This document shows, piece by piece, positions 4,793-17,926 of a stretch of 64,000 nucleotides of DNA. A program made the translations under genes and the position numbers. This DNA is from Deltaproteobacteria bacterium (GTDB lineage: Bacteria > Desulfobacterota > Desulfuromonadia > Desulfuromonadales > Geopsychrobacteraceae): NCBI GenBank assembly GCA_024280335.1, contig JAJRQI010000006.1, forward strand, positions 1 through 64,000, read 5' to 3'. The notes under the pieces were generated by a model. That model did no database searches and was not told the origin of the DNA. It saw nothing but the letters and a program-made list of their open reading frames with translations. Positions within the stretch are counted from its first letter, which is position 1. Each line of letters begins with the position of its first letter.

Positions 4793-6475
4793 ATGTATTT
4801 AAAGCAGTTCGGTCTCAACGAAAAACCATTTCATATCACTCCGAACCCTCGCTTCATCTTTCTCAGTAAAAACCATAAAGAAGCATTCGCGCACCTGCTT
4901 TACGGTATTCAACAACGGGTCGGTTTTCTCTCGCTGACCGGCGAGGTCGGGACTGGAAAAACTACTGTTTTACGCACACTTCTGCAGCAACTTGAAGAAT
5001 CTGAATACAGGGTTGCGTTGGTTTTTAATCCCTGCCTGACGGATATAGAGCTACTGCAGAGTATTCATCGCGAGTTCGACATTAAGTTTGACGCAGAGCA
5101 GTTAAATCTGGTCAGCCTGCATGACTCTTTAAACAAGTTTCTGCTGACCCAGCGCGAGGCCGGCAAAACCGTTGTCCTGGTTGTCGATGAAGCGCAAAAC
5201 CTGGATCCTTCGGTTCTGGAGCAGTTGCGTTTATTATCCAACCTGGAAACCGAGACAGAAAAATTAATCCAGATGGTGCTGGTCGGGCAGCCGGAGTTGG
5301 ATGAACTTTTTACTCGGCATGATTTACGCCAATTACGCCAGCGTCTGGCCGTTCGCTATCAACTTGCGCCGATGGACAGTGAAGATACCTGTCGCTATAT
5401 TCAGCATCGCGTGCGCATTGCCGGCTGGCAAAATGGGACGCTGTTTACCGACAAAGCACTTGAACGGGTTTATCGGAGTACCGGCGGCACCCCAAGGCTG
5501 ATCAACATTCTCTGCGACCGGGCGATGCTGGTCGCATACAGCCATGATGCGCGCTCGGTCACTCATCAGGATATTGCCGCTGCCCAAAAAGAGCTGGGGA
5601 ATAAAGAGCTGCGTGTTCGCAGTAAACTTTTGCCGGTGGTTGCCTTTGTCACCCTCGCTTTTGTCGCCGGATTTGCTGGTAGCCAGTTCTTAAATTATCT
5701 GCAGGCACAGAATAAACGAATCTGGATTTCACATTCTCAGGTAGAAACTTTGCCGGAACCGACAATTTCGGCGGCTGCTCCTGTGGCTCAGGTTCAGGCG
5801 GCGGTGCAAACACCAGTCTCCGGCGAAAGAATCCAGCAGCTGCAACAGGCGATTGCTGATCTTTCAATCGATCAAACGGTAACTCAGGCCTATCGGGCCA
5901 CAGCTGTACTCTGGAATCAGCGTCCAAAGCAACTTCCGGCAATCCACAATCGTTACGCATTAAAAAGCGCCTTGAAAAATATCGGTTTCAATACCGTCGA
6001 TTTTCAAGGAAATTTCGCTGGCCTGGCGGCCATGAATGCTCCGTCAATTCTGGAGATTATCCTGCCGAACGTAGATGGAAAACGTTTTCTGGCCTTAGTC
6101 GAAGTGCTTGATGATCAGGTACGTACGGTTCCGGCAATAACCACTAGCGGTTGGTTAACCACGCAGGAACTACAGCTGATCTGGTTTGGCCGAGCGACTT
6201 TACCCTATATCAACTTCGAAAAAATCCGCATGGTTGATCGTCCGGATCAAACCGGCTCTGACATCGTAAAGGTTCAACGTCTGCTACAGCAAGTCGATAC
6301 CGGCAAGCCGTTGGACAGTGGCATCTACGATCGACAAACGATTGAAGCCGTCACCCGTTTTCAGATTAACCATCAGCTGGCTCCCGACGGGCGGGTCGGG
6401 CCTCAGACGCTGTTTTGGCTTTACAAAGAGTCCGGCAGGGAGATGCCGCAGCTAGAGTCGGGAGGAGCGTCATGA
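4793..6475 (+). CDS. ExeA/GspA-type AAA+ ATPase with peptidoglycan-binding domain
   Basis: The 560-residue protein has a Walker A motif GEVGTGKTT at about residues 50-58, Walker B VVLVVDEAQ at about 128-136, and the ExeA signature opening (FGLNEKPFHITPNP). A single transmembrane segment (about 283-303) is followed by a periplasmic part with a C39-like region (about 380-480) and a PG_binding_1 repeat (about 490-545, GIYDRQTIEAVTRFQ). In Aeromonas, ExeA and ExeB work together at the peptidoglycan to let the type II secretin assemble. The next gene is a GspB homologue that overlaps by 4 bp, supporting the same role. No other type II secretion genes lie nearby, so the partner secretin must be encoded elsewhere. 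It could alternatively serve a MshM-like pilus system. Confidence 0.85.
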   Translation: MYLKQFGLNEKPFHITPNPRFIFLSKNHKEAFAHLLYGIQQRVGFLSLTGEVGTGKTTVLRTLLQQLEESEYRVALVFNPCLTDIELLQSIHREFDIKFDAEQLNLVSLHDSLNKFLLTQREAGKTVVLVVDEAQNLDPSVLEQLRLLSNLETETEKLIQMVLVGQPELDELFTRHDLRQLRQRLAVRYQLAPMDSEDTCRYIQHRVRIAGWQNGTLFTDKALERVYRSTGGTPRLINILCDRAMLVAYSHDARSVTHQDIAAAQKELGNKELRVRSKLLPVVAFVTLAFVAGFAGSQFLNYLQAQNKRIWISHSQVETLPEPTISAAAPVAQVQAAVQTPVSGERIQQLQQAIADLSIDQTVTQAYRATAVLWNQRPKQLPAIHNRYALKSALKNIGFNTVDFQGNFAGLAAMNAPSILEIILPNVDGKRFLALVEVLDDQVRTVPAITTSGWLTTQELQLIWFGRATLPYINFEKIRMVDRPDQTGSDIVKVQRLLQQVDTGKPLDSGIYDRQTIEAVTRFQINHQLAPDGRVGPQTLFWLYKESGREMPQLESGGAS

Positions 6476-7092
6476 GTTCAATCCTCAAGGCTTTGCGCAA
6501 GCTGGAAGATGAAAAATCAGACCTGGGGGAGGGGAGTGTCGACCTCGCCCGGGATATTCTCAAACGTTCATATGAGGAACGTCGTTCCCGTTCAATCTGG
6601 GGGATTGTCGCCCCCTTTGCCGCAGCTCTGTTGCTGGTTGGCGGCTGGTGGCTGTTTTCTCCGAATGAAGAAGCGCGTCAACAAAAAGTGCTGGCGGTGC
6701 AACCGGCAGAACAAACTATTCCGGCCGTGCCGATTGTCGACAATGCTCTACAGCCGCAGCTTCAACCGGTTGTCGTTATGCCGAGCCGCCCGGCTGAAAC
6801 CGCTAAAAAACAAACGACAACCAGCGTTGAACAAAACCCTTCAGTCGCAGCAGAAGAACAACCAGACCTTCCCAATGCTGCCGTTGCTACGTCGATCGTC
6901 ATCCCGGATCTGGTCATCGAAGAGATCGTTTTTGTCGCTGACCCCAGTGCGCGCCTTGCTGTAATAAATGATCTGCCGGTTATGCAAGGAACCGATATTG
7001 AGGGTGCCCGGGTCGTTGAAATTTTGTCAGACAGGGTACGTTTTGAATTTCAGGGAGTTCGGTTTGATAAGTTCAAGAAGCAGAACAACTGA
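6472..7092 (+). CDS. GspB/ExeB-like secretion accessory protein
   Basis: The start chosen is the ATG at 6472, which overlaps the upstream stop (ATGA) and follows a GGGAGGAG site. This gives 206 residues beginning MSSILKALRKLEDEK, the typical GspB N-terminus. A transmembrane segment lies at about residues 43-60, followed by a Pro/Gln-rich periplasmic linker. The C-terminal GspB domain spans about 145-205 (LAVINDLPVMQGTDIEGARV). GspB pairs with GspA/ExeA to position the type II secretin. The 4-bp overlap with the ExeA-like gene implies translational coupling and a joint complex. The equivalent pair in Geobacter-like genomes is often away from the main gsp operon (family knowledge). Confidence 0.82.
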   Translation: MSSILKALRKLEDEKSDLGEGSVDLARDILKRSYEERRSRSIWGIVAPFAAALLLVGGWWLFSPNEEARQQKVLAVQPAEQTIPAVPIVDNALQPQLQPVVVMPSRPAETAKKQTTTSVEQNPSVAAEEQPDLPNAAVATSIVIPDLVIEEIVFVADPSARLAVINDLPVMQGTDIEGARVVEILSDRVRFEFQGVRFDKFKKQNN

Positions 7093-7141
7093 GTTCTCTC
7101 TTCATGAAAATCTTGATGCAGCGCTTGCCTGAGTTGACAAA

Positions 7142-10100
7142 ATGAGGACAACTTACAGCCTGAAGGATGCACTTACTTGGCGATTTATCGCTGTGGCTGT
7201 GCTGCCGCTATTGATTGTCAGTTTTGTTTTCTTTGACTATTTCTCCCGCGAAACGGAACAGCGGCTAAAGCGGGAAAACTTCTCCCTTGCCGAGGCATTT
7301 GCTTCGCAGGTTGCCCTGGAACTTCGTGAGCCTTACCTGCTGATCCGTCAACTCCCTGATTTCATTAATCACCCTGCGATCAAGTCGGCAGACTACAGCG
7401 GTCTGTTGAAGAAACTTGTCCGTGACAACAGCATCTTCCAGTCGGTCTGGATGTTGGATGAAAACCAGCATGTCCTGGCCAGCAGTTTCTCCCGGCAGAG
7501 CCAGGAGAACTCAGATGAACTTCTGGCTGCGGACTTTTCGCAATTGCCATTTTTGCAAACCATCCAGAAAGCCAAAGGGGTCTTCTGGTCGCCGGCATTT
7601 CTCTCCAAAACTTCTGCTGAAATTTCTCTGGCAGTCGCTTATCAGGCTGACAGCTATTGCTTGTTCGGCAAACTCAATACCGCCCAACTTCGGCAACAAC
7701 TCTCCAGGCAGATCAAAGATCGAACCTACCACTTGGCATTACTCGATCAGCAGGGGAAAGCGGTTCTGCAGGTTCCACAAAAGCAAGGCCGCGAACTGCT
7801 CAATTTTGCCGAAGTTTCCCCCGTGAAGTCGGCATTGGCAAAGAATCCGCACACCTCCCGCTATTCTTTCGCCGGACGAAACTATATCGGCGCCGCTGTC
7901 AAGGTTCCGAACATGGAATGGTACGTTTTGTTCGGCCAGGAAGATGTTGCTTTAACGGCTGCGATCTGGCGCTTGCGGATAATTTTTCTGCTCGGTTGCC
8001 TGGCGTCAATCTTCTTTGCCAGTCTTTTGGCGCGTACGCTGTCCATAAAAATTGTTCGGCCGATCTCCGAGCTGATTATCAGCACCAAATCATTCAGTGA
8101 AGGGGATTATCGCCATCCGCTACCATACGGGAATCATCGTGAAATTGATGAACTCTCCGAAGGGTTTCGACGGATGCGATTGGCGATTGATGAACGGGAA
8201 CAGGAACTTTGGAAAAATCGCGAATATTTTCATCGGTTGTTCAATGGGATTACTGACGCTATCTTCATTTCCAACCGCTTGCCGAACGGCAAGCCGGGGA
8301 AGTTTTCCGAGGTCAACAATGTCGCCTGCCGTTTGCTCGGCTACAGTCGCGAGGAGTTGTTGAAATTGTCCCCCTATGAGACCAATCAGATCAGTCAGGA
8401 GGCACCGGACGATTTTCAACTGATTCTGGATGAGATTTCAAATAGTGGGCGGACCCTGTTCAAGTCCCATTTACGCTGTAAAAACGGTGAACTGATTCCG
8501 GTTGAAATCGGCAGCCAACTATTTGAACTGGCAGGGAAAAGGGTGTATTTTTCCGTCGCACGAGATATTACTTTGCGAGAAAAATATGAATCATCGATTC
8601 AAACCCTGGTCCGCAGTACGGTCGGGTTGACCGGTCAGGCTTGCCTGGACGAAATAACCTGCAACCTCTGTCAATGGTTAGGTGCGGACGGCGCCAGCAT
8701 CAGCCTTTTTCAAAACGATTATCTGGATGTGCAAGCCTGTTGTTTCAACGAACGCAGGATCGGCAGATTTTGCCTGCCGATCAGTGATACGCCCTACGTC
8801 GAGATTCTCGACGGGGAATACCGGTTCCTGACGGAAAATGTCGCCGTTGATTATCCTGCGGTCAATGGTGCCGGTCTGCCGGAAATTGACAGCTTTATCG
8901 GTATGCCGATGCTCGGCCATGAAGGGCAGGTTATCGGCGCCATCAGCGTTTTTTCCCGCGAGTCGATACAGGCGGTTCCGCATATTGAAGAACTGCTTTC
9001 GGTCATTGCTTCACGTGCTGCAACCGAATGTGAACGGATGCATTACGTGCGTGAACTCTCGCACCGTGAGGAGATGCTGCGCACCCTGTTCAATTCTACC
9101 GCTGAGGCGATCGTCGGCATCGACCTGCAGGGCACCTGTACTTTTTGCAACCCGGCCAGCCTGAGAATTCTGGGTTACGCCGACGAGACAGAGTTGATCG
9201 GCCGGCGTTTTCACCGTTTGGTTCAGTATTTTCCAGAGGTCAATTCGGATCCAGAAGATGAACCTTGCCCATTTATGGCGACGATTCTGCAAAACCAAAA
9301 AAATATCGCCGCTGATGCCAGCTTGGCGCATAACGACGGGCACAGTATTCCGGTCGAGTTCTGGGGGCATCCGATGTTTCAAGAGGGTGAACTGGTGGGC
9401 GGTGTCGTGACCTTTATCGATATCTCACGACGGCGGGTTCTGGAAAAGCAGTTGCAGCAATCCCAGCGGATGGAAGCGATCGGCACTCTGACAGGAGGGA
9501 TCGCACATGATTTTAACAACATCCTGACGGTTATTACCGGTTACGCCGGTTTGTTGCAGGCCGAATGTAAAGAGGACAAAAAACTGCTGTCAAAAGCGAA
9601 TAAAATCGCCGAGGCCGCAGACCGCGGCTCTAAATTGACTCACGGGTTGCTGGCCTACAGCCGCAAGAAAAATGAGCCGTCGACACCGGTCGATTTAAAC
9701 CAGCTGGTCATCAAGGTCCAGGATCTGTTCGGTAAAGTTATCGGCGAACGAATTCAGAAACAGATCACCCTGTCGAATCAGCAGCTGGTGGTGCTGGCCG
9801 ACACCTCGCAGCTGGAACAGGTGCTGGTCAATCTGGCGACCAATGCTCGTGATGCGATGTTGGATGGCGGCATCCTCAGCATGAAGACCATGCCGACGGT
9901 CATCGACAAGGATTTCTGTCGTATGCATGGTTACGGCGAGCCGGGTGAATATGCGCAGATTATAGTTGAAGATACCGGCAGCGGGATGTCCAAGGATGTT
10001 CAGCAGAAGATTTTCGACCCCTTCTATACCACCAAAGATACCGGCAAAGGGACGGGTCTGGGACTGGCGATCGCCTGGGGGATTGTCAAACAGCATAAAG

Positions 10101-10585
10101 GCTACATTCTGGTCGACAGCACTCCGGGGCAGGGGACACGCTTCAGAATTTATCTGCCGTTGACGACCCGGAAACTGCTTCCACAGCAACAGATCCGGAA
10201 TGATCAGCTCCCGGGCGGCAGCGAAACCATCCTGCTGGTCGAAGATGATCCGCAAGTGCGTGAGTCGACCTGCAGTATTCTGAACGCTGTGGGTTACCAG
10301 GTGCTCGATAGTGACTGTGCTGATTCTGCCTTACAGGTTCTGGATGCCGAGGAAGCTGAGATTTCTCTGATCCTCTCCGATGTTGTCATGCCCGGCATGA
10401 AGGGCACTGAGTTCTATCAGGAAATCCGCACAAAAACTGCCGCACCGGTAATTTTTATCAGCGGCTACACCTTTGATGCTTTACGTGAGCAGGGTTTGGT
10501 CGGCGAAGATTTCATGCTGCTGAACAAGCCGATTCAGCCGATCGACCTGCTGACGAAAATTCGCGAAACATTAGATCGCGAGTAA
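7142..10585 (+). CDS. Hybrid sensor histidine kinase (Cache-HAMP-PAS-GAF-PAS-HisKA-HATPase-REC)
   Basis: The 1147-residue membrane kinase has a transmembrane helix at about residues 15-34, a periplasmic Cache-like sensor region (about 35-275), a second transmembrane helix (about 278-298) and HAMP (about 299-350). A PAS domain (about 363-480), GAF (about 490-645) and second PAS (about 650-770) follow. The phosphorylated histidine is His789 in AHDFNN. The ATPase domain shows NLATNARDAM, DTGSGM and GTGLGLA. A C-terminal receiver starts near residue 1027 with phospho-acceptor Asp1080 (LILSDVVMPG). The receiver is fused and no response regulator is adjacent, so the output partner is unknown. Both ligand and pathway are unassigned. 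It follows the GspB gene by 49 bp on the same strand and could be co-transcribed. Confidence 0.88.
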   Translation: MRTTYSLKDALTWRFIAVAVLPLLIVSFVFFDYFSRETEQRLKRENFSLAEAFASQVALELREPYLLIRQLPDFINHPAIKSADYSGLLKKLVRDNSIFQSVWMLDENQHVLASSFSRQSQENSDELLAADFSQLPFLQTIQKAKGVFWSPAFLSKTSAEISLAVAYQADSYCLFGKLNTAQLRQQLSRQIKDRTYHLALLDQQGKAVLQVPQKQGRELLNFAEVSPVKSALAKNPHTSRYSFAGRNYIGAAVKVPNMEWYVLFGQEDVALTAAIWRLRIIFLLGCLASIFFASLLARTLSIKIVRPISELIISTKSFSEGDYRHPLPYGNHREIDELSEGFRRMRLAIDEREQELWKNREYFHRLFNGITDAIFISNRLPNGKPGKFSEVNNVACRLLGYSREELLKLSPYETNQISQEAPDDFQLILDEISNSGRTLFKSHLRCKNGELIPVEIGSQLFELAGKRVYFSVARDITLREKYESSIQTLVRSTVGLTGQACLDEITCNLCQWLGADGASISLFQNDYLDVQACCFNERRIGRFCLPISDTPYVEILDGEYRFLTENVAVDYPAVNGAGLPEIDSFIGMPMLGHEGQVIGAISVFSRESIQAVPHIEELLSVIASRAATECERMHYVRELSHREEMLRTLFNSTAEAIVGIDLQGTCTFCNPASLRILGYADETELIGRRFHRLVQYFPEVNSDPEDEPCPFMATILQNQKNIAADASLAHNDGHSIPVEFWGHPMFQEGELVGGVVTFIDISRRRVLEKQLQQSQRMEAIGTLTGGIAHDFNNILTVITGYAGLLQAECKEDKKLLSKANKIAEAADRGSKLTHGLLAYSRKKNEPSTPVDLNQLVIKVQDLFGKVIGERIQKQITLSNQQLVVLADTSQLEQVLVNLATNARDAMLDGGILSMKTMPTVIDKDFCRMHGYGEPGEYAQIIVEDTGSGMSKDVQQKIFDPFYTTKDTGKGTGLGLAIAWGIVKQHKGYILVDSTPGQGTRFRIYLPLTTRKLLPQQQIRNDQLPGGSETILLVEDDPQVRESTCSILNAVGYQVLDSDCADSALQVLDAEEAEISLILSDVVMPGMKGTEFYQEIRTKTAAPVIFISGYTFDALREQGLVGEDFMLLNKPIQPIDLLTKIRETLDRE

Positions 10586-10937
10586 ACTTCAGTACCGCGG
10601 AAAATGGCCTCGCGCTGCCCATTCCCAGGGACGCATGAACCCATCCCTGGAGCTTGCTGACGCCATCCTGGCGCCAGACACCCTTGAAATGGGCACCCCG
10701 AGACCATCCGGCTGAAGAGTTACGATTGCGTAAAGACTCGCGTCAACGCCTGAAAAAGCTGGCCGGGCACTTTGCACCGTTGGATATTCTGCATTTATCT
10801 GTTGAATATTCTGCGGTGTTTCTGTTTACACCAAACCACCTTATGTTAAATCAGCAGCTTACCTCATATTCAGCGCTGGCATAGTTCCTGATATAAGCAC
10901 AGGGAATAAATTACCCTCCATCGAAAGGAACGACAAA
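10586..10937. other. Intergenic region without a convincing gene
   Basis: In these 352 bases I see no supported gene. Two small inverted repeats are visible: CCAGGGA/TCCCTGG at 10625-10650 and the palindrome CTGGCGCCAG at 10668-10677. The first 150 bases are GC-rich and may be a decayed dispersed repeat. The last 100 are AT-rich and presumably hold the promoter of the following cluster, but no clear -35/-10 pair stands out. Confidence 0.5.
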
Positions 10938-11816
10938 ATGGGCAAGAAGCAGCTGTTGATTGTATTCTCTGTTGTTGCCATCGGTCTGGTCACGGGGATC
11001 GGTCTGTTTGTAACAGACAGGGATGCGAATGCCAGTTTCGCCATGAGCGAAATGACGGTAAAAAAACTGACCTGCGGTTCCTGTGTTTCAAATATTACGA
11101 CAGCTCTTGCCGCCGTTGCCGGTGTCGAGTCGGTTGAGGTCAGCGTTACCACCGGCCGTAGTCAGGTCCTGTTCAATCCTGCAATCGTCGACGCGCAGCA
11201 AATCGCCAAAGTTGTCAGTGATGCGGGCTATCCAGCGACTGTGACCCGGCAGTTCTCCAACGAGCAATATCTGGCGATGCAGAACGAAGAAGCCAAGCTG
11301 GCAGAAATCTATGTCGCAAAAATCGGTCAACGTCTTCTCGCTCGTGATGAATTTGATCAGTTGGTGACCCAGAGGTTGATTGCCGGAGGCTTGCAGAATC
11401 GACCGGAGATGAAACAACAGATCGTCAAACAAACCTGGCAAAGCCTCAAACAGAGGATTCTGTTGATCGGGGCTGCTGAGACAAATCGGGTGGTTGTTCA
11501 GGATGGCGAAGTCGAACTGAAAATCAAGCAGATGCAGCAACAGATGCCGAACTTCGACAACTACGTTAAAGCAAAATATGTTTCTTCAGACGATTTCTTT
11601 CGTCAAATCAAGGAAGACATGATTATCAACAAGAACATTCAGGAGAATGTTCTGGCCGGGATTTCTAATCCCAATCAACGCCAAACCCGTTTCAACCAAT
11701 GGTTTCAGGATCTGATCGGCAACTCTCCGGTGATAATTTATGATGCCGCTCTGAAGCAGGCGACTCGCTCTACCGGTGGCTGCGGGAGCGGCTCCGGTGG
11801 TGGTTGTTGTGGTTGA
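10938..11816 (+). CDS. Membrane-anchored heavy-metal-associated (HMA) domain protein with Cys-rich tail
   Basis: The 292-residue protein has an N-terminal signal anchor (about residues 5-27), then an HMA fold (about 38-103) with the metal-binding motif TCGSC (Cys46, Cys49). A helical Gln-rich region (about 105-270) resembles the N-terminal part of SurA/PpiC chaperones. A short tail, GGCGSGSGGGCCG, carries three cysteines. The protein is probably periplasmic and binds copper or another soft metal or thiol. It has a good ribosome site (AAAGGAACGACAAA). It is the first gene of a same-strand cluster with a DUF2318 protein, an ABC transporter and two zinc-ribbon proteins, suggesting a shared metal or redox function. 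The exact substrate is unknown. Confidence 0.7.
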   Translation: MGKKQLLIVFSVVAIGLVTGIGLFVTDRDANASFAMSEMTVKKLTCGSCVSNITTALAAVAGVESVEVSVTTGRSQVLFNPAIVDAQQIAKVVSDAGYPATVTRQFSNEQYLAMQNEEAKLAEIYVAKIGQRLLARDEFDQLVTQRLIAGGLQNRPEMKQQIVKQTWQSLKQRILLIGAAETNRVVVQDGEVELKIKQMQQQMPNFDNYVKAKYVSSDDFFRQIKEDMIINKNIQENVLAGISNPNQRQTRFNQWFQDLIGNSPVIIYDAALKQATRSTGGCGSGSGGGCCG

Positions 11817-11856
11817 GGCAGATAACTGGTCAGTAATCAAATAAAGGAGTCCGACA

Positions 11857-12375
11857 ATGAGCAATGAACGACAGGAAAAGAAAAAACAATTCACCGAAGT
11901 AGAAAAAAAGGGTGGTTTCGGCAAGATCGCCGTAATTTTACTGGCGCTGGTTGTCGTAGCTGGAGTTGCCGGGTTTACCCTGCTCGGGCAGGGATCGCCC
12001 GATGGCTATGCGTCGGCAAAAAGCGTCGGTGATGAGGTGCGGGTCAACTTGGCTGACGTCAGCGATGGTCAAGCCCACTATTTTACTTTTGATTCCGCGC
12101 AAGGCGAGATCAAGTTCTTTGTTGTGAAGAGTATTGATGGAATCGTCCGCGCGGCCTTTGACGCCTGTGACGTCTGCTACAAATCCAAAAAAGGTTACCG
12201 GCAGGAAGGGGATAACATGGTTTGCAATAACTGCAACCAGAAATTCCGTACCGACCGGGTAAACGAAGTCAAAGGCGGCTGCAACCCGGCGCCGCTCAGT
12301 CGCCGCATTGAAGGTACGCAGGTGGTTATCTCCGGTCAGGACATTCTCAAAGGCGCCTGGTATTTCGGCGGTTAA
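11857..12375 (+). CDS. DUF2318 membrane-anchored Cys-rich protein (FtrD-like)
   Basis: The 172-residue protein has a charged N-terminus, one transmembrane segment (about residues 24-44) and a periplasmic DUF2318 domain (about 50-172). The domain carries the cysteine motifs CDVC, CNNC and GGCNP, which could ligate a metal or Fe-S centre. DUF2318 proteins accompany FTR1/P19-type iron uptake in other bacteria, for example the Campylobacter p19 region, which also has MacB-like permeases and an ATPase (established knowledge of that locus). No FTR1 permease is present here. An AAAGGAG ribosome site precedes the ATG. It lies 40 bp after the HMA gene and 25 bp before the ABC permease. Confidence 0.75.
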   Translation: MSNERQEKKKQFTEVEKKGGFGKIAVILLALVVVAGVAGFTLLGQGSPDGYASAKSVGDEVRVNLADVSDGQAHYFTFDSAQGEIKFFVVKSIDGIVRAAFDACDVCYKSKKGYRQEGDNMVCNNCNQKFRTDRVNEVKGGCNPAPLSRRIEGTQVVISGQDILKGAWYFGG

Positions 12376-12400
12376 TAACCCTTTTTTTAAGTGAGCAGCC

Positions 12401-13558
12401 ATGAAACTTGAAACGATCGCCTTCAATAATCTTCGCCGCCGGAAAAGCCGCATGGCCTTTTTGGTGGTCGGCTTGTTGATCGGTGTGGCAACCGTTGTCA
12501 CTCTGGTTTCCCTGTCGAATGCCTTGACGGCCGACATTCAGCATAAAATGGAAAACTTCGGCGCCAATATTCTGCTTACGCCGCGTAGCGACACGCTGTC
12601 GCTGAGCTACGGTGGCATCACCCTCGGCGGGGTGTCGATCGATTCCAGAGAGATCGTTCAGGCCGACCTGGTGAAAATCCACACGATCAAAAACAGTCGT
12701 AATATTTCGGCTGTTGCGCCGAAAGTTTTGGGCGCGGTGACTGTCGACAATGAGCGAGTGATGTTGATGGGGGTCGAACTGGATAAAGAGTTTCATTTAA
12801 AGAAATGGTGGACCATCAACGGCGAACCGGCCAAAACCGATCATCAACTGGTTGTCGGTAATACCGCAGCGGCCAAGCTGAACCTGAAAATCGGCTCTAA
12901 ACTGACAATTTCAGGTGAGCTGTTTGAGGTGACTGGTATTCTTGATAAAACCGGATCACAGGATGATCAACTGCTGATCGGCTCACTGCCGACCGCGCAA
13001 CGATTGCTGAACAAGCCTGGCACAGTCTCCCTGGTAGAAGTGGCAGCGCTCTGTTCTGACTGCCCGGTAAGCGATATGGTTAATCAGATTGCCGAAGTTC
13101 TGCCGAATGTAGAGGTTCGCGCCATTCAACAGGTAGTTAAAACCCGCATGCACGCACTCGACCAGTTTCGCACCTTTTCGCTGGCAATTGCTGCGATCGT
13201 GCTGCTGATCGGGGCGCTGGTGGTCTTTGTTACCATGATGGGTTCAGTCAACGAAAGAACCCGCGAAATCGGTATCTTTCGCGCACTCGGTTTTCGTCGC
13301 GGCCATGTGGTCCGGCTGATTCTGATGGAATCTGCTGCGGTCAGTCTGCTCGCCGGGTTGCTCGGTTATCTGGTCGGGATGTTGGCCACTCAGGCAGTTT
13401 TGCCCTTCATGGCAGAACATCAGGTGGCCCTGCATTGGAGTCCTGTGCTGGCGGGACTGGCGATGCTGCTGGCCCTGCTGGTCGGCTGTGCCGCCTCCTT
13501 TTATCCGGCACTGCATGCCAGCCGCCTCGATCCGACCGAAGCTCTCAGGGCTCTTTAG
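12401..13558 (+). CDS. ABC transporter permease, MacB/FtsX family
   Basis: The 385-residue protein has one N-terminal transmembrane helix (about residues 20-40), a large periplasmic MacB_PCD-like domain (about 45-230) and three C-terminal helices (about 260-285, 310-345, 350-370) around the FtsX signature (NERTREIGIFRALGFRRGHV region). Such permeases form mechanotransmission-type complexes with a LolD/MacB ATPase, encoded 15 bp downstream here. The cluster has a single permease, so a homodimer is likely. The neighbours (HMA, DUF2318, zinc ribbons) point to metal or thiol handling rather than lipoprotein sorting. The equivalent Campylobacter locus has two permeases. Confidence 0.83.
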   Translation: MKLETIAFNNLRRRKSRMAFLVVGLLIGVATVVTLVSLSNALTADIQHKMENFGANILLTPRSDTLSLSYGGITLGGVSIDSREIVQADLVKIHTIKNSRNISAVAPKVLGAVTVDNERVMLMGVELDKEFHLKKWWTINGEPAKTDHQLVVGNTAAAKLNLKIGSKLTISGELFEVTGILDKTGSQDDQLLIGSLPTAQRLLNKPGTVSLVEVAALCSDCPVSDMVNQIAEVLPNVEVRAIQQVVKTRMHALDQFRTFSLAIAAIVLLIGALVVFVTMMGSVNERTREIGIFRALGFRRGHVVRLILMESAAVSLLAGLLGYLVGMLATQAVLPFMAEHQVALHWSPVLAGLAMLLALLVGCAASFYPALHASRLDPTEALRAL

Positions 13559-13573
13559 CCGACAGGAATAGAT

Positions 13574-14281
13574 ATGTCATTTATCGAAATCGAGAATTTG
13601 GGTAAAACCTTTTGCAGTGATGCCGACACGGTTGTTGCTCTCGGGCAGATTGATCTGAAGATTGAGGATGGTTCTTTTCTCGGTGTGATGGGACCGTCCG
13701 GTTCAGGAAAGAGTACTTTTCTGTCGATTATGGGCGGCCTTTGCCATCCATCTGAAGGGAAAATTCTTGTCGAAGAAATCGACCTCTATCGTCTGAGCAG
13801 CGAAAAGAGAGCCGATTTCAGACGGGAATATCTGGGTTTCGTTTTCCAGTCCTTCAACCTGATCCCGTACCTGACGGCACAGGAGAATGTCATGCTGCCG
13901 CTGGCAGTGAAAAAAATCCCCGTAAAGCAGAAAAAAGCGTTGGCCAACCAGGTGCTGGAGCGGGTCGGCTTGTCGCACCGTCTGACCCACCTGCCGAATC
14001 AACTCTCCGGCGGCGAACAGGAGCGGGTTGCTATCGCCCGGGCTTTGGTCAATTCACCTCCGCTGATCCTTGCCGATGAGCCGACCGGGAGCCTGGACAC
14101 CGCGACCAGTCAAGAAATCATGGGCCTTTTTCAGGAGCTGAACGAGGAGGGTCAAACCATCATTATGGTCACCCATAACGATGAAAACAGGCCTTATTTT
14201 GATCGAACCGTTATTTTGCGGGATGGTAATATTGCAGAAGACAGTAATCGGAGACCGAAGGTTGTTGCTCAGGCAGGCTAG
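13574..14281 (+). CDS. ABC transporter ATPase, LolD/MacB type
   Basis: The 235-residue nucleotide-binding subunit shows Walker [10 protein letters not shown] (about residues 40-48), Q-loop FVFQSFNL, a signature [15 protein letters not shown], Walker [13 protein letters not shown] and the switch His in MVTHND. The signature glutamate (GGE in place of GGQ) is a small variation from the usual LSGGQ. It partners the upstream MacB/FtsX-type permease. The next gene starts 2 bp after its stop, so the whole cluster appears to be one transcript. Confidence 0.88.
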
Positions 14282-14283
14282 CC

Positions 14284-14541
14284 ATGATTCTATTATTGCT
14301 GCTGACATTGGCATTATTGCTCTGGATGATCCAACGAGAGCTTGACTCTACGGCGCGTGAAGTGCCGATGCCGGAAGATCAGTGTGCCAATTGTCATGCC
14401 CCGATCGACATCGATTGGATGGTCTGCCCCCATTGTCAGCAACGTCTGCGTGAATCATGCCCCTGTTGCCACAAAGGGAAGAAGATCAGCCATCCCCATT
14501 GCCCGTTTTGCGGTAACACCGGGAAGGAGAGGGCGGCATGA
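14284..14541 (+). CDS. Membrane-anchored double zinc-ribbon protein
   Basis: The 85-residue protein starts with a hydrophobic helix (about residues 1-17). Four Cys pairs follow (CANCH, CPHC, CPCCH, CPFC) that form two zinc ribbons. It has no catalytic motif. It starts 2 bp after the ABC ATPase and overlaps the next gene by 4 bp. By position it belongs to the metal/redox ABC cluster and probably binds zinc or acts as an adaptor. It is not assigned to a named family. Confidence 0.65.
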   Translation: MILLLLLTLALLLWMIQRELDSTAREVPMPEDQCANCHAPIDIDWMVCPHCQQRLRESCPCCHKGKKISHPHCPFCGNTGKERAA

Positions 14542-14846
14542 ACAATAGGATAAACTCCAGAAACCTTCCGGTCGGGCTGCTGATCACTGGTCTGTTGCTG
14601 GTGATTATTGGCTATAATTACTGGTCTTTTCAGGGGGGACGCTGCACCGTAGCATCATTGCTGACTCTAAGCGCGCCGGCAATCCTGCTTATCCTGTTGA
14701 ATGCAGTCGCTTGCGGGGTGTTGTTGTGGAGCAAGGACCGCAACCGTCGTCAGCAGCAGAATCGTTATTGTGGCTGCGGCGCAGAACTACGCGGCACCTG
14801 GAGCTTTTGTCCAAGCTGTGGAAACGCACGGGATACTACTGCTTAA
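14538..14846 (+). CDS. Two-helix membrane protein with C-terminal zinc ribbon
   Basis: The 102-residue protein has two transmembrane helices (about residues 12-30 and 42-66) and then a cytoplasmic zinc ribbon (CGCGAELRGTWSFCPSCG). The ATG overlaps the previous stop by 4 bp. It ends the cluster, and its TAA stop overlaps the TAA stop of convergent bioD within a shared TTAA at 14843-14846, so there is no room for an intergenic terminator. Its function is unknown. Confidence 0.62.
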   Translation: MNNRINSRNLPVGLLITGLLLVIIGYNYWSFQGGRCTVASLLTLSAPAILLILLNAVACGVLLWSKDRNRRQQQNRYCGCGAELRGTWSFCPSCGNARDTTA

Positions 14847-15562
14847 GGGAGATACCCTTGCAACAGCGGCAAGGTCGGCAGCTTCTTCAGCTGTTCAGCC
14901 AACCTGACAACTTTTTCCTGCTCAGTCCCCCCGACAGAATCTAGAATGCCCAACAGCTCAGCGGTTGTCAGCGATGCCAGACTGTGAGCAACGGTCTCTT
15001 CTGCGGCAGTTTTAATCGGCGGCATGTTGTTGATCAGGTACCCGGCGACCTCCAGGTCCATCGCTTTGGCGAAAAACAGGCTCAGCAGGCTGTGGTTGAT
15101 GGTTCCCAGATTCGGCCGGCAAACCAGCAGCAGCGGCAGCGATACTGCCCGAGCAAAATCAGCCATCAACAAGCCACCCGCCAGCGGAACCATCAAGCCG
15201 CCCGCTCCCTCGATGATCGTGAAATCGTGACGGTCGATCGTCAGTCGGGCCTGTTCCACGAGGTTGCTGTAATCGATTCGAACCTGCTCTCGCGAAGCGG
15301 CCACCGCCGGTGCCAGCGGGTCACGGAAGCGATAGGGGCAGATCTGCTCGTCGGTCTGCTTTGAACCGGCCGCCCATTTCAAGAGTGCGGCATCCGGCCC
15401 AAGGGAACCAGCATCGGCAACTCCGGTTTCCGCTGGTTTAAACACCCCGACATGAATGCCGCGCTCCTTCAACATCTTTGCCAGAGCTGCCGCAACCAGC
15501 GATTTGCCGACACCGGTATCGGTGCCGGTGATGAAAAGTCCTCTATTTCTGGTTGCAGACAT
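14843..15562 (-). CDS. bioD: Dethiobiotin synthetase
   Basis: The 239-residue protein has the BioD P-loop GTDTGVGKS at about residues 12-20, the substrate-binding KPAETG, and the EGAGGLMVPL motif. It forms dethiobiotin from 7,8-diaminopelargonate, CO2 and ATP in biotin synthesis. Its start overlaps the end of bioB by 20 bp, so the two are translationally coupled. bioA and bioF are not in the window. Confidence 0.95.
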   Translation of the reverse strand: MSATRNRGLFITGTDTGVGKSLVAAALAKMLKERGIHVGVFKPAETGVADAGSLGPDAALLKWAAGSKQTDEQICPYRFRDPLAPAVAASREQVRIDYSNLVEQARLTIDRHDFTIIEGAGGLMVPLAGGLLMADFARAVSLPLLLVCRPNLGTINHSLLSLFFAKAMDLEVAGYLINNMPPIKTAAEETVAHSLASLTTAELLGILDSVGGTEQEKVVRLAEQLKKLPTLPLLQGYLP

Positions 15563-16716: not shown

Positions 16717-16740
16717 TAAAATTCTATGGAGCGATATGAA

Positions 16741-17301
16741 ATGGTTAAAAAACTTATCGGTATAAAGCTGAAGTCTTCACGCCTTAAAAGAGACAAAACG
16801 ATCCAGGAGCTTGCGGTATTATCGCGGGTTTCTTCTAATATGATTTCCAGAATTGAACGGGGTCTGACAACTCCGTCCGTAGAAATTCTGATGAAACTGG
16901 CTGATGCGCTCGGCTTGAGTCTGAGTTATTTTGTCGAAGAAGCAGAAAAGGGGAGTACGGTTGTTTTTACTCCGTCAGGGCAAGGTGAACCGATCTTCTT
17001 TTTTGAAGACAAGCATCAGATTGCCAGCCTCACGCAGGGGTTGCGGGATCCCGGTTTCTCTGTCTTTGTAGATACCCTTGAGCCGTATTGCGATAGCGGT
17101 GAAGGCGGCATGGTGCACACCGGTGAAGAGTTCGCAATGGTGCTGGAAGGCAGCCTTGATTTTTTGATTGAGGGCGAAACGTTCCGCCTGGAAAAGGGCG
17201 ACTCGATCGGTTTCAAAGCAACGCTGCCGCACAGTTGGAGAAACACCAGTACTCAGCAAACAAAAATCCTCTGGATTGTCTCGCCGCCGCCAAATGTTTG
17301 A
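16741..17301 (+). CDS. XRE-family transcriptional regulator with cupin domain (copy 1)
   Basis: The 186-residue protein has an N-terminal XRE helix-turn-helix (about residues 8-62, SSNMISRIERGLTTPSVEIL) and a C-terminal cupin_2 sensor (about 110-185, HTGEEFAMVLEGSLDF, PHSWRN). The ATG at 16741 is preferred over an upstream in-frame ATG (16726) because GGAG is correctly spaced and the N-terminus then aligns with the paralogue. This class (PuuR/SinR-like with cupin) senses small metabolites. A close paralogue follows 58 bp downstream, and together they precede an HU/IHF gene. The ligand and targets are unknown. Confidence 0.85.
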   Translation: MVKKLIGIKLKSSRLKRDKTIQELAVLSRVSSNMISRIERGLTTPSVEILMKLADALGLSLSYFVEEAEKGSTVVFTPSGQGEPIFFFEDKHQIASLTQGLRDPGFSVFVDTLEPYCDSGEGGMVHTGEEFAMVLEGSLDFLIEGETFRLEKGDSIGFKATLPHSWRNTSTQQTKILWIVSPPPNV

Positions 17302-17359
17302 TGACCAGCCATCGTTTAATTTGATGCCTTTCTTAGATCAAATCTGGGAGTTGTAAGTT

Positions 17360-17926
17360 ATGCAGATAAAAAAGATTGTCGGCAAGAAGCTGAAAGCGAT
17401 CCGCCTGAAACAGGAGCTGACAATTCAGGTGTTGGCAGAAAAATCACATGTTTCTTCCAATATGATCTCCCGGATCGAGCGCGGTCTGACAATTCCATCC
17501 GTGGAAATACTGATGCGCCTGGCGATGGTTTTTGATAAAAGTATCAATTATTTTGTTGAGGATGTTTCAACCTCGCATGAAATCGTTCATACACGTCCCG
17601 GACAGCGGGATAAAACCGTCTATGACGATGAACACAACATGCATACCGAATCCTTTACCTCCGGCCTGCGTGATCCACAATTCACATCTTTTTTCTGCAC
17701 GGTTCAGAGGGGTGGCAGCAGCGGCCGGCAGAATATGTATCACCCCGGTGATGAACTGATTTATGTCCTTGCGGGACGTCTGCAAATGACCATCGTCGAG
17801 GAAGTATACATTTTAGAAACGGGGGACAGCCTGAGTTTTAAATCACATCTGCCGCATCGCTGGGACAACATCGGCGAGGATGACGCTAAAGTTATCTGGA
17901 CGCTGTCGCCTTTTACAATTATATAA
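17360..17926 (+). CDS. XRE-family transcriptional regulator with cupin domain (copy 2)
   Basis: This 188-residue protein is a paralogue of the preceding gene: the HTH is nearly identical (SSNMISRIERGLTIPSVEIL at about residues 33-52) but the cupin is more diverged (HPGDELIYVLAGRLQM, PHRWDN). The near-identical recognition helices suggest the two bind the same DNA site while responding to different signals, or form heterodimers. It is tandem and co-oriented with copy 1. The palindrome in the promoter of the next gene is a possible target. Confidence 0.85.
   Translation: MQIKKIVGKKLKAIRLKQELTIQVLAEKSHVSSNMISRIERGLTIPSVEILMRLAMVFDKSINYFVEDVSTSHEIVHTRPGQRDKTVYDDEHNMHTESFTSGLRDPQFTSFFCTVQRGGSSGRQNMYHPGDELIYVLAGRLQMTIVEEVYILETGDSLSFKSHLPHRWDNIGEDDAKVIWTLSPFTII

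Follow-up and report, generated by a model that had tools for sequence, protein, structure and literature searches.

What is the function of an operon that joins an HMA-domain protein, a DUF2318 protein, a single MacB/FtsX-type permease with its ATPase, and two zinc-ribbon membrane proteins? Such a set occupies positions 10938-14846 of the DNA analyzed here, a window of 64,000 nucleotides from a deltaproteobacterium of the family Geopsychrobacteraceae (GenBank assembly GCA_024280335.1, contig JAJRQI010000006.1, forward strand). The reading that we favor, and consider fairly probable, is an envelope heavy-metal module, most likely for Cu(I) and possibly for Ag(I) or another soft metal, that would act beside a CusCBA-type efflux system and be switched on together with it. 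This heavy-metal efflux reading is based on an operator shared with a Cus operon on contig C69 of the same genome and on the adjacency of Cus-type genes to related clusters.

The six-gene set and its control region

The six open reading frames (ORFs) run head to tail on the plus strand, with gaps of 40, 25, 15, 2, and -4 bases; the last value is a four-base overlap of the two zinc-ribbon genes, the second of which also shares four bases with a convergent ORF on the minus strand (14843-15562). Judged from this layout, they make up a single operon-like set, preceded by a tandem palindrome and a sigma-54-like element. ORFs, spacing, and Pfam matches confirm the six-gene HMA-DUF2318-ABC-zinc-ribbon cluster (ABC, ATP-binding cassette) proposed for these coordinates by the first-pass annotation. 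The permease CxxC, the SurA-like segment of the HMA protein, and the promoter layout described below are additions to that annotation. The source assembly is 99.5% complete. The features, all on the plus strand, are:

10779-10792 and 10801-10814, plus strand: tandem operator, two GCAGAATATTCTGC-like dyads, 22 bp start to start
10876-10893, plus strand: sigma-54-like -24/-12 element CTGGCATAGTTCCTGATA, 62 bp after the second dyad
10938-11816, plus strand: HMA protein, 292 aa; Pfam HMA PF00403, 45.9 bits
11857-12375, plus strand: DUF2318 protein, 172 aa; Pfam PF10080, 112.3 bits
12401-13558, plus strand: permease, 385 aa; Pfam FtsX 82.0 and MacB_PCD 69.2 bits
13574-14281, plus strand: ATPase, 235 aa; Pfam ABC_tran, 116.6 bits
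14284-14541, plus strand: zinc ribbon 1, 85 aa; Pfam DZR 26.9 bits, below the cut-off of 27.3
14538-14846, plus strand: zinc ribbon 2, 102 aa; Zn_Ribbon_1 22.2 bits, below the cut-off of 25

The window dyads, GTTGGATATTCTGC and GTTGAATATTCTGC, are imperfect copies of the palindrome GCAGAATATTCTGC, which is perfect and double in the related locus L009, and they are kept in seven relatives aligned with the window. They are the probable upstream activating site of an NtrC-type enhancer-binding protein. An operator pair with at most seven mismatches in total lies upstream in 33 of 57 loci from the same order as the source, 13 of 36 from the rest of the class, and 1 of 39 from the rest of the phylum; shuffles gave 0.15, 0.05, and 0, respectively (the controls permute two-base blocks, and the shuffled-motif control covers the loci under 9 kb, 197 kb). 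The motif TGGCA(C/T)-N5-NTG follows no more than 110 bp downstream in 44 of the 47 loci with a tandem site, with 0.3 expected from shuffles, and the -24 GG element TGGCA(C/T) is likewise present in 44 of the 47. The sigma-54-like element of these 44 loci is offset by 62-65, 74-78, 84-87, or 96 bp, values that differ by roughly one helical turn. An enhancer-binding protein that activates sigma-54 RNA polymerase would be expected to use such an arrangement. In the window, the -12 part of the element reads TGA, the consensus being TGC.

A loose operator search of the source genome, which required exact ATATTC cores and may miss degenerate pairs, returned eight pairs, only two of which are accompanied by the sigma-54-like element: that of the window operon (offset 62) and one on contig C69 (offset 63) that stands directly before genes for an outer membrane efflux protein (OEP), CusB, and CusA. 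Beside this second operator, a 175-aa ORF (L173:2322-2849) lies between a kinase-like gene and OEP-CusB-CusA. Across the class, of the 100 distinct operator pairs among the matches listed, 14 have DUF2318 no more than 2 kb away and a further 29 have CusB no more than 6 kb away, with 0.29 expected; the count used part of the listed DUF2318 and CusB places. Among the 16 remaining operator stretches from other genomes, four precede OEP-CusB and a resistance-nodulation-division (RND) gene (L180-L182, L187) and four adjoin NtrC-type genes (L183, L184, L190, L191). Tandem operators are also found away from DUF2318 in L178, L179, and L188, with RND-type ORFs within several kilobases, and beside the gene of a 570-582 aa protein in L185 (4288-6036) and L192 (1400-3112), a possible regulon member.

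Cus-type efflux genes and the candidate regulator

Related clusters are adjoined by OEP, CusB-like, and RND genes and, in many cases, by a histidine kinase and a sigma-54-type regulator. Representatives of these neighbors score as OEP, HlyD_D23 plus a heavy-metal binding domain, AcrB/D/F-type RND, HisKA/HATPase, and Sigma54_activat. CusB lies less than 10 kb from DUF2318 in 47 of the 94 class genomes with both among the matches listed (150 + 150 distinct places), with 0.6 expected; this value, like the 0.29 above, presupposes a genome size of 4 Mb and genes placed independently of each other, in genomes that are themselves related. The window module shares with CusCFBA its envelope heavy-metal efflux context, its operator, and, in relatives, adjacency to CusCBA-type genes, but holds no RND pump, adaptor, or outer-membrane channel of its own.

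The copy on pPRO1, a plasmid of Pelobacter propionicus, lies in a metal island that comprises a CsoR/RcnR-family regulator, a P-type ATPase, an HMA protein, the four-gene core, a kinase, a sigma-54 regulator, TolC, an RND adaptor, and CusA/CzcA. Its P-type ATPase scores 622 bits, above the cut-off of the copper model TIGR01511. In a search of plasmids, the permease occurs in one record (pPRO1) and DUF2318 in 833 records, 795 of them from Escherichia; the plasmid DUF2318 rows listed other than pPRO1 have 30-33% identity, and among plasmid records gene surroundings were read for pPRO1.

Geobacter sulfurreducens presumably carries a copy of the cluster, which the GSU genes of the next sentence probably represent. 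According to the accessible portions of the respective papers, GSU1330 (metal efflux outer membrane), GSU1333, and GSU1340 (ABC permease) are jointly lower in G. sulfurreducens anode biofilms (PMC2680965), PMC3495685 refers in passing to GSU1338-GSU1341 as a metal efflux pump, and PMC10599522 names gsu1330-32 as an RND transporter. The same organism is described, in the accessible text of PMC7726332, as lacking CusF, which leaves room for a module of this kind. In gut Firmicutes, DUF2318 and HMA proteins, some fused with DsbD, belong to an inferred CsoR copper meta-regulon, as far as the available part of PMC4938975 goes. A literature search, mostly of papers outside subscription, found no description of the module, the operator, or the attached regulon, and the main texts of RpoN regulon papers on G. 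sulfurreducens (PMC2725144) and Desulfovibrio vulgaris (PMC4641369) gave no match for copper, efflux, or the palindrome core.

The TolC-family OEP genes beside related clusters, together with the MacB/LolE homology of the permease, could also indicate a MacAB-TolC-like exporter of a peptide, lipoprotein, or metallophore under metal stress. Most of these OEP genes come with CusB and RND genes, however, and are therefore part of an RND pump. No MacA-like adaptor occurs among the 20 recurrent class neighbors scanned, nor a MacA-type adaptor among the six window proteins, and the adaptors scanned near related clusters are of the CusB/CzcB type; we regard the exporter as the least likely of the readings considered. 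Neighbors of about 376 and 450 aa, which by length were candidates for MacA and TolC, are actually a histidine kinase and an NtrC-type regulator, with others being OEP and CusB.

Copper-site assembly offers a further comparison, since the NosDFYL module combines an ABC mechanotransmitter with periplasmic copper proteins; the likeness is by analogy only. Sets of this kind, an HMA carrier with an ABC mechanotransmitter, serve metal-centre assembly, and the first-pass annotation had proposed cofactor or metal delivery to the envelope. Delivery to a cuproenzyme or cytochrome would also suit five loci (L066, L067, L071, L096, L101) in which an HMA-DUF2318 pair without ABC genes lies beside multihaem cytochrome-family genes, possibly a third type of DUF2318 locus. 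Against it, the operator is common to an efflux operon, and no client-enzyme family is constant in the clustered class neighborhoods, the largest cluster of which (37 loci) is of the sensor-kinase type. Delivery therefore appears very unlikely: what stands of the proposed metal or thiol system is a conserved, Cys-rich, probably metal-handling envelope set with a MacB-type ABC transporter, while the delivery role found no positive evidence, and gene neighborhood and shared operator favor heavy-metal efflux or detoxification with CusCBA. Neighbors that by length might have been ResB/CcsA of cytochrome c maturation are actually CTP synthase, a cytidylyltransferase, and DAHP synthase.

A candidate for the activator is encoded in the source genome itself. 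The NtrC-type protein beside the operator in L183, from a member of the same family, is 73% identical to the protein encoded at C14:21105-22451, the next best place giving 49%. In a comparison of the four best of 33 NtrC-like places, the C14 protein is the best fit for 21 of the 27 NtrC proteins from cluster or operator loci, five fit another better, and one has no match; L183 is the probe that found C14, and L151 and L064 are the same plasmid gene. The source genome thus probably holds an orthologue of the NtrC-type regulators beside related clusters, which may bind the tandem operator. The C14 gene follows a kinase gene, about 50 bases before which lies a single dyad with three mismatches; the full tandem site is absent there. 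On contig C14 (L197:1412-6645), the kinase and regulator genes are followed by ORFs that by eye are HtrA protease-, TlpA-, and CcdA-like, and the stretch resembles an operon for envelope stress that is linked to this regulon.

Conservation of the module and the Fet-type iron systems

PF10080 (Pfam's FtrD-like family, formerly DUF2318) is found in 164 of the 244 genomes of the class and, at E <= 0.001, in 76 of the 297 of the phylum. The long HMA-SurA form of the HMA protein is found in 49 of 238 class genomes (E <= 1e-15), all in the same order as the source. In 140 fetched neighborhoods, gene order was scored by a strict distance rule in loci with enough flank. DUF2318 is followed by permease and ATPase genes in 55 of the 56 loci of the order, 25 of the 35 from the rest of the class, and 23 of the 35 from the rest of the phylum, which exceeds a chance grouping; an HMA gene stands directly before DUF2318 in 49 of 55, 28 of 36, and 4 of 35; and a zinc-ribbon gene lies downstream in 44 of 52, 0 of 34, and 0 of 33. 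On these counts, the core is widespread, the HMA gene is typical of the class, and the zinc ribbons and SurA-like extension are mainly features of the order. A lack of co-occurrence outside the source genome had been named beforehand as one of two findings that would refute the first-pass proposal; the set recurs elsewhere, and on this count the proposal survives.

These figures reflect the rule and the sample. The strict rule undercounts where an ORF was called too long, and it missed HMA beside DUF2318 in L029, L046, and L062 as well as permease plus ATPase in L020, L079, L115, L118, L131, L132, and L136. Loci L003-L052 were picked from HMA matches (L034 was added for DUF2318), which biases the order figure of 49 of 55 upward, while L053-L062 and L083-L086 were picked for DUF2318 without an HMA-SurA match. 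The 36 other class loci are mainly strong DUF2318 matches and second copies, not a random draw. A contig search yielded one relative, L002, on the same contig as L003, and L001 and L002 are left out of all counts. An HMA match without DUF2318 in the stretch occurs in L033, L037, L038, and L048, of which L033 and L038 are split or at the end of a contig and L037 and L048 are not. In some phylum loci (L131, L136, L146, L147), the HMA gene comes after the ATPase gene.

Several loci vary the theme. In L128 (7158-8126), a single protein directly before DUF2318 begins like a zinc ribbon and also has a membrane helix, a part resembling SurA, and a CCG motif (by eye), which suggests that zinc-ribbon and SurA-like accessory parts belong to the system; kinase and regulator genes precede it, and OEP/CusB/RND genes follow. 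In L065 (7373-7828), a Met/His-rich, secreted-looking protein of 151 aa (by eye) takes the place of the HMA gene directly before DUF2318. In other classes of the phylum (L113, L115-L118, L121, L125, L132-L137), the gene before DUF2318 often encodes, in place of an HMA protein, a small protein that is rich in Cys, looks secreted, and has LYL....LLC or a similar end. Genome G020 of the same family has two cluster copies, L015 and L016, about 74 kb apart.

The FetMP-type relatives of such clusters serve iron uptake. The accessible portions of PMC10783030 and PMC6083913 identify, in Campylobacter jejuni, FetA as the DUF2318 protein, FetB and FetC as two permeases that are both needed, FetM and FetP as FTR1 and P19, and FetE and FetF as two thioredoxins; PMC6083913, in the same portions, describes DUF2318 genes as almost always part of FetMP-type iron-uptake clusters and gives the pattern of its proteins as CxxC-x(13)-CxxC-x(14,15)-C. 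The window protein, with x15/x15, is two residues longer in the first spacing and otherwise fits the pattern. The window operon also resembles FetMP-FetABCDEF in holding DUF2318, a MacB-type permease, and an ATPase in one operon, but it has a single permease and none of the Fet extras (FTR1, P19, second permease, thioredoxins), and it adds the permease CxxC, the HMA protein, the zinc ribbons, and the Cus-type operator.

An iron-acquisition role would make the set a FetMP-FetABCDEF variant whose DUF2318-ABC part serves another iron importer. The components in common with FetABCD argue for it, as do the iron-sensitive growth defects of a C. jejuni FetABCD deletion (reported in the available text of PMC10783030 and PMC6083913) and the fact that Fet-type permeases are found by the same profile as the window permease. 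FTR1 (PF03239) and P19 (PF10634), however, have no match in the whole assembly, so that the resemblance to the Campylobacter p19/FTR1 region without P19 or FTR1, seen already from the window, holds genome-wide. In the class, FTR1 occurs in 12 of 238 genomes and P19 in 8 of 238, with FTR1 but not P19 in two family members, G149 and G020. Since P19 is found in 8 of 238 class genomes and DUF2318 in 164 of 244, most DUF2318 proteins must belong to something else. No thioredoxin-family match (Pfam) occurs among the six window proteins.

The permease separates the two kinds of locus. Its CxxC cysteines are kept in 117 of 120 aligned homologues, and the three without them are exactly L089, L112, and L130. 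These loci have two permeases beside DUF2318, both without CxxC; they are the only fetched neighborhoods with P19 and FTR1 matches (phmmer; FTR1/P19 control loci aside), and they lack the operator pair (12-15 mismatches). A further MacB-like permease without CxxC in L085 is on the other strand and is taken as unrelated. By permease CxxC, the DUF2318-ABC modules seen here split cleanly into two types. A degenerate FetMP system is rejected by the absence of FTR1 and P19 and by the permease type, and with one CxxC permease and an operator foreign to the Fet-type loci, the iron role is distinctly unlikely.

Elsewhere in the window, positions 4793-10585 before the operon encode an AAA/peptidoglycan-binding ATPase (ExeA-like by eye), a GspB-like protein, and a large PAS/GAF hybrid sensor kinase; the ExeA-like ATPase and GspB-like genes recur upstream in several family members. 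A 27-nt inverted repeat (10604-10707; 81% complementary, 50 nt apart) lies 3' of the sensor kinase gene, and two tandem HTH-cupin regulators (191 and 188 aa) at 16726-17926 belong to a family kept in eight loci.

Conserved cysteines and a possible mechanism

The encoded proteins are rich in conserved cysteines. The counts refer to aligned homologues after removal of sequences under 60% of the median length, which kept 57 of 93 HMA proteins (most short class copies being out), 120 of 123 permeases, and 140 of 141 DUF2318 proteins.

The HMA protein is membrane-anchored or secreted, with a CxxC at residues 46/49, a SurA-N-like segment (residues 120-232; 26.5 bits, just below the Pfam cut-off of 27.2), and a Cys-rich C-terminal tail (C282, C290, C291). 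Among the 57 aligned long homologues, the CxxC is present in all 56 with letters there, and the tail cysteines are kept in 53 of 55, 52 of 57, and 42 of 54, respectively. Outside the order, other class HMA proteins are mostly about 95-185 aa. The best NCBIfam models for the domain are metal-binding and CopZ families, all below cut-off; the CopZ models give 43.7-47.1 bits with curated cut-offs of 85-95. It shares an HMA domain with CxxC with CopZ/MerP-type metallochaperones but differs in its fusion to an anchor, a SurA-like segment, and a Cys tail. Selenocysteine was considered, as the single best NCBIfam match of the HMA domain is a UxxU selenoprotein model and the G012 homologue has an in-frame TGA (the G071 homologue has a TAA); it was rejected for G012, where the TGA is the stop after a GGCC tail.

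The DUF2318 protein has one N-terminal membrane helix and the pattern CxxC-x15-CxxC-x15-C. All 139 homologues that have letters at these places keep its first four cysteines, and 139 of 140 keep the fifth. A predicted model from two sequences has a mean pLDDT of 60 and is better at residues 50-100 and 150-160. All 50 VIA rows for this model are Rieske-domain or NirD-type relatives (best Z 6.9, root-mean-square deviation 2.1 over 63 residues), where a match with Z below 8 can reflect a common arrangement. No Foldseek match reached E <= 0.001, and the 50 listed (E 0.0014-0.026, large deviations) are Rieske or Rieske-like; a PDB sequence-profile search returned nothing credible, which leaves the Rieske likeness without profile support. 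The predicted fold may resemble that of Rieske ferredoxins; the ligand pattern is CxxC...CxxC...C, not the Rieske CxH...CxxH. In the model, the two CxxC pairs would sit where Rieske proteins have CxH and CxxH. As a lead only, the DUF2318 domain may be Rieske-like, with ligands, all of them cysteines, that would hold an Fe-S cluster or else Cu/Zn.

The permease carries its CxxC (C218/C221) between the MacB_PCD and FtsX parts and a WW at 136/137. It matches PDB structures of MacB but scores far below the curated MacB, LolC/E, and FtsX cut-offs, and the ATPase, of the LolD/MacB/FtsE type, is likewise below the cut-offs of those named models. A predicted permease model from two sequences (mean pLDDT 45) was unusable. 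The fold family is that of MacB/LolCDE/FtsEX (type VII, mechanotransmission ABC), from which the window operon differs in lacking MacA and in its conserved CxxC. The MacB-type permease and ATPase known from MacAB-TolC are here two separate proteins. Zinc ribbon 1 is a small membrane protein with a double zinc ribbon whose eight cysteines are kept in 42 to 45 of 45 aligned sequences; positive charges place it probably on the cytoplasmic side. Zinc ribbon 2 has two membrane helices, a putative topology, and a C-terminal four-Cys zinc ribbon, with the cysteines kept in all 40 or 41 of 42 aligned sequences with letters there. The CxxC motifs of the HMA protein, DUF2318, and the permease would face the periplasm, as suggested by the anchors and the MacB fold.

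The strongest rival to the efflux reading is a thiol or protein-repair system induced by metal, in which a CxxC electron relay and a SurA-like chaperone would rescue damaged or mis-metallated envelope proteins, with metal as inducer and not as cargo. The many CxxC sites in one operon are in keeping with it, as are the SurA-like segment just below its cut-off, the HtrA-, TlpA-, and CcdA-like ORFs noted by eye after the putative C14 regulator gene, the resemblance of the DUF2318 model to Rieske electron carriers, and the action of FetE and FetF on thiols in C. jejuni (from the accessible part of PMC10783030). Metal as cargo is the better match for the HMA domain and for the Cus pumps and CopA-type ATPase next to related clusters. 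In addition, the long HMA-SurA form is for the most part limited to the order, the rest of the class having mainly short HMA proteins. We consider a repair system unlikely.

Under the efflux reading, a two-component system with an NtrC-type regulator would sense excess metal and activate both the window and the OEP-CusB-CusA operons through sigma-54. The MacB-fold transporter would not pass metal through the inner membrane; its ATP-driven conformational change would instead release or hand on metal, or strip it from a mis-metallated protein, for expulsion by CusCBA, with the SurA-like part and the zinc ribbons as accessories. Metal as the cargo, copper as the metal, and the ATP-driven hand-off to CusCBA are inferred, and the HMA, DUF2318, and ABC proteins may stand in for the periplasmic chaperone CusF. 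The fullest version of this scheme, in which an HMA catcher, a five-Cys Rieske-fold DUF2318 protein, and a CxxC-bearing MacB-fold mechanotransmitter load Cu(I) onto CusCBA in place of CusF, as a new ATP-driven relay under a sigma-54 two-component regulon with a tandem GCAGAATATTCTGC operator, is tentative and, taken whole, doubtful.

A number of observations weigh against the efflux reading. The window cluster is not beside Cus genes, the OEP-CusB-CusA genes being on contig C69, and among stretches with 4 kb on both sides CusB/RND genes lie nearby in only 7 of 39 order loci (11 of 33 in the class and 9 of 28 in the phylum). CusB adjacency is concentrated in query-like CusB, the query having come from a cluster locus: among the matches listed, CusB lies within 20 kb of DUF2318 for 42 of 60 places among the 72 best and for 10 of 53 among the rest. 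Of the 100 operator pairs, 57 are near neither DUF2318 nor CusB, 8 of the 16 remaining operator stretches are without explanation, and the operator is rare outside the class. A strict -12 GC element (TTGCA/T) occurs in 1 of 141 upstream regions, the usual reading being TGA or TGT at the same spacing. Outside the order, several class loci, as many as 10 of 35, carry DUF2318 but lack a full set of ABC genes. The pPRO1 adaptor passes only the general RND-adaptor model, its pump only the joint CusA/CzcA model, and its regulator no curated cut-off; Zn, Co, or Cd may therefore be the metal. Finally, the step from the permease CxxC to a metal hand-off is conditional, and the motif could equally be a redox pair.

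Through the shared operator, an orphan operon becomes a testable member of a heavy-metal regulon and gains a candidate activator, and a second type of DUF2318 module can be distinguished by one permease motif. If the ABC transporter does act on periplasmic metal, it would be a mechanotransmission transporter for metal handling and not for drugs, lipoproteins, or cell division, and the module might explain how G. sulfurreducens, reported without CusF, feeds its Cus-type pumps.

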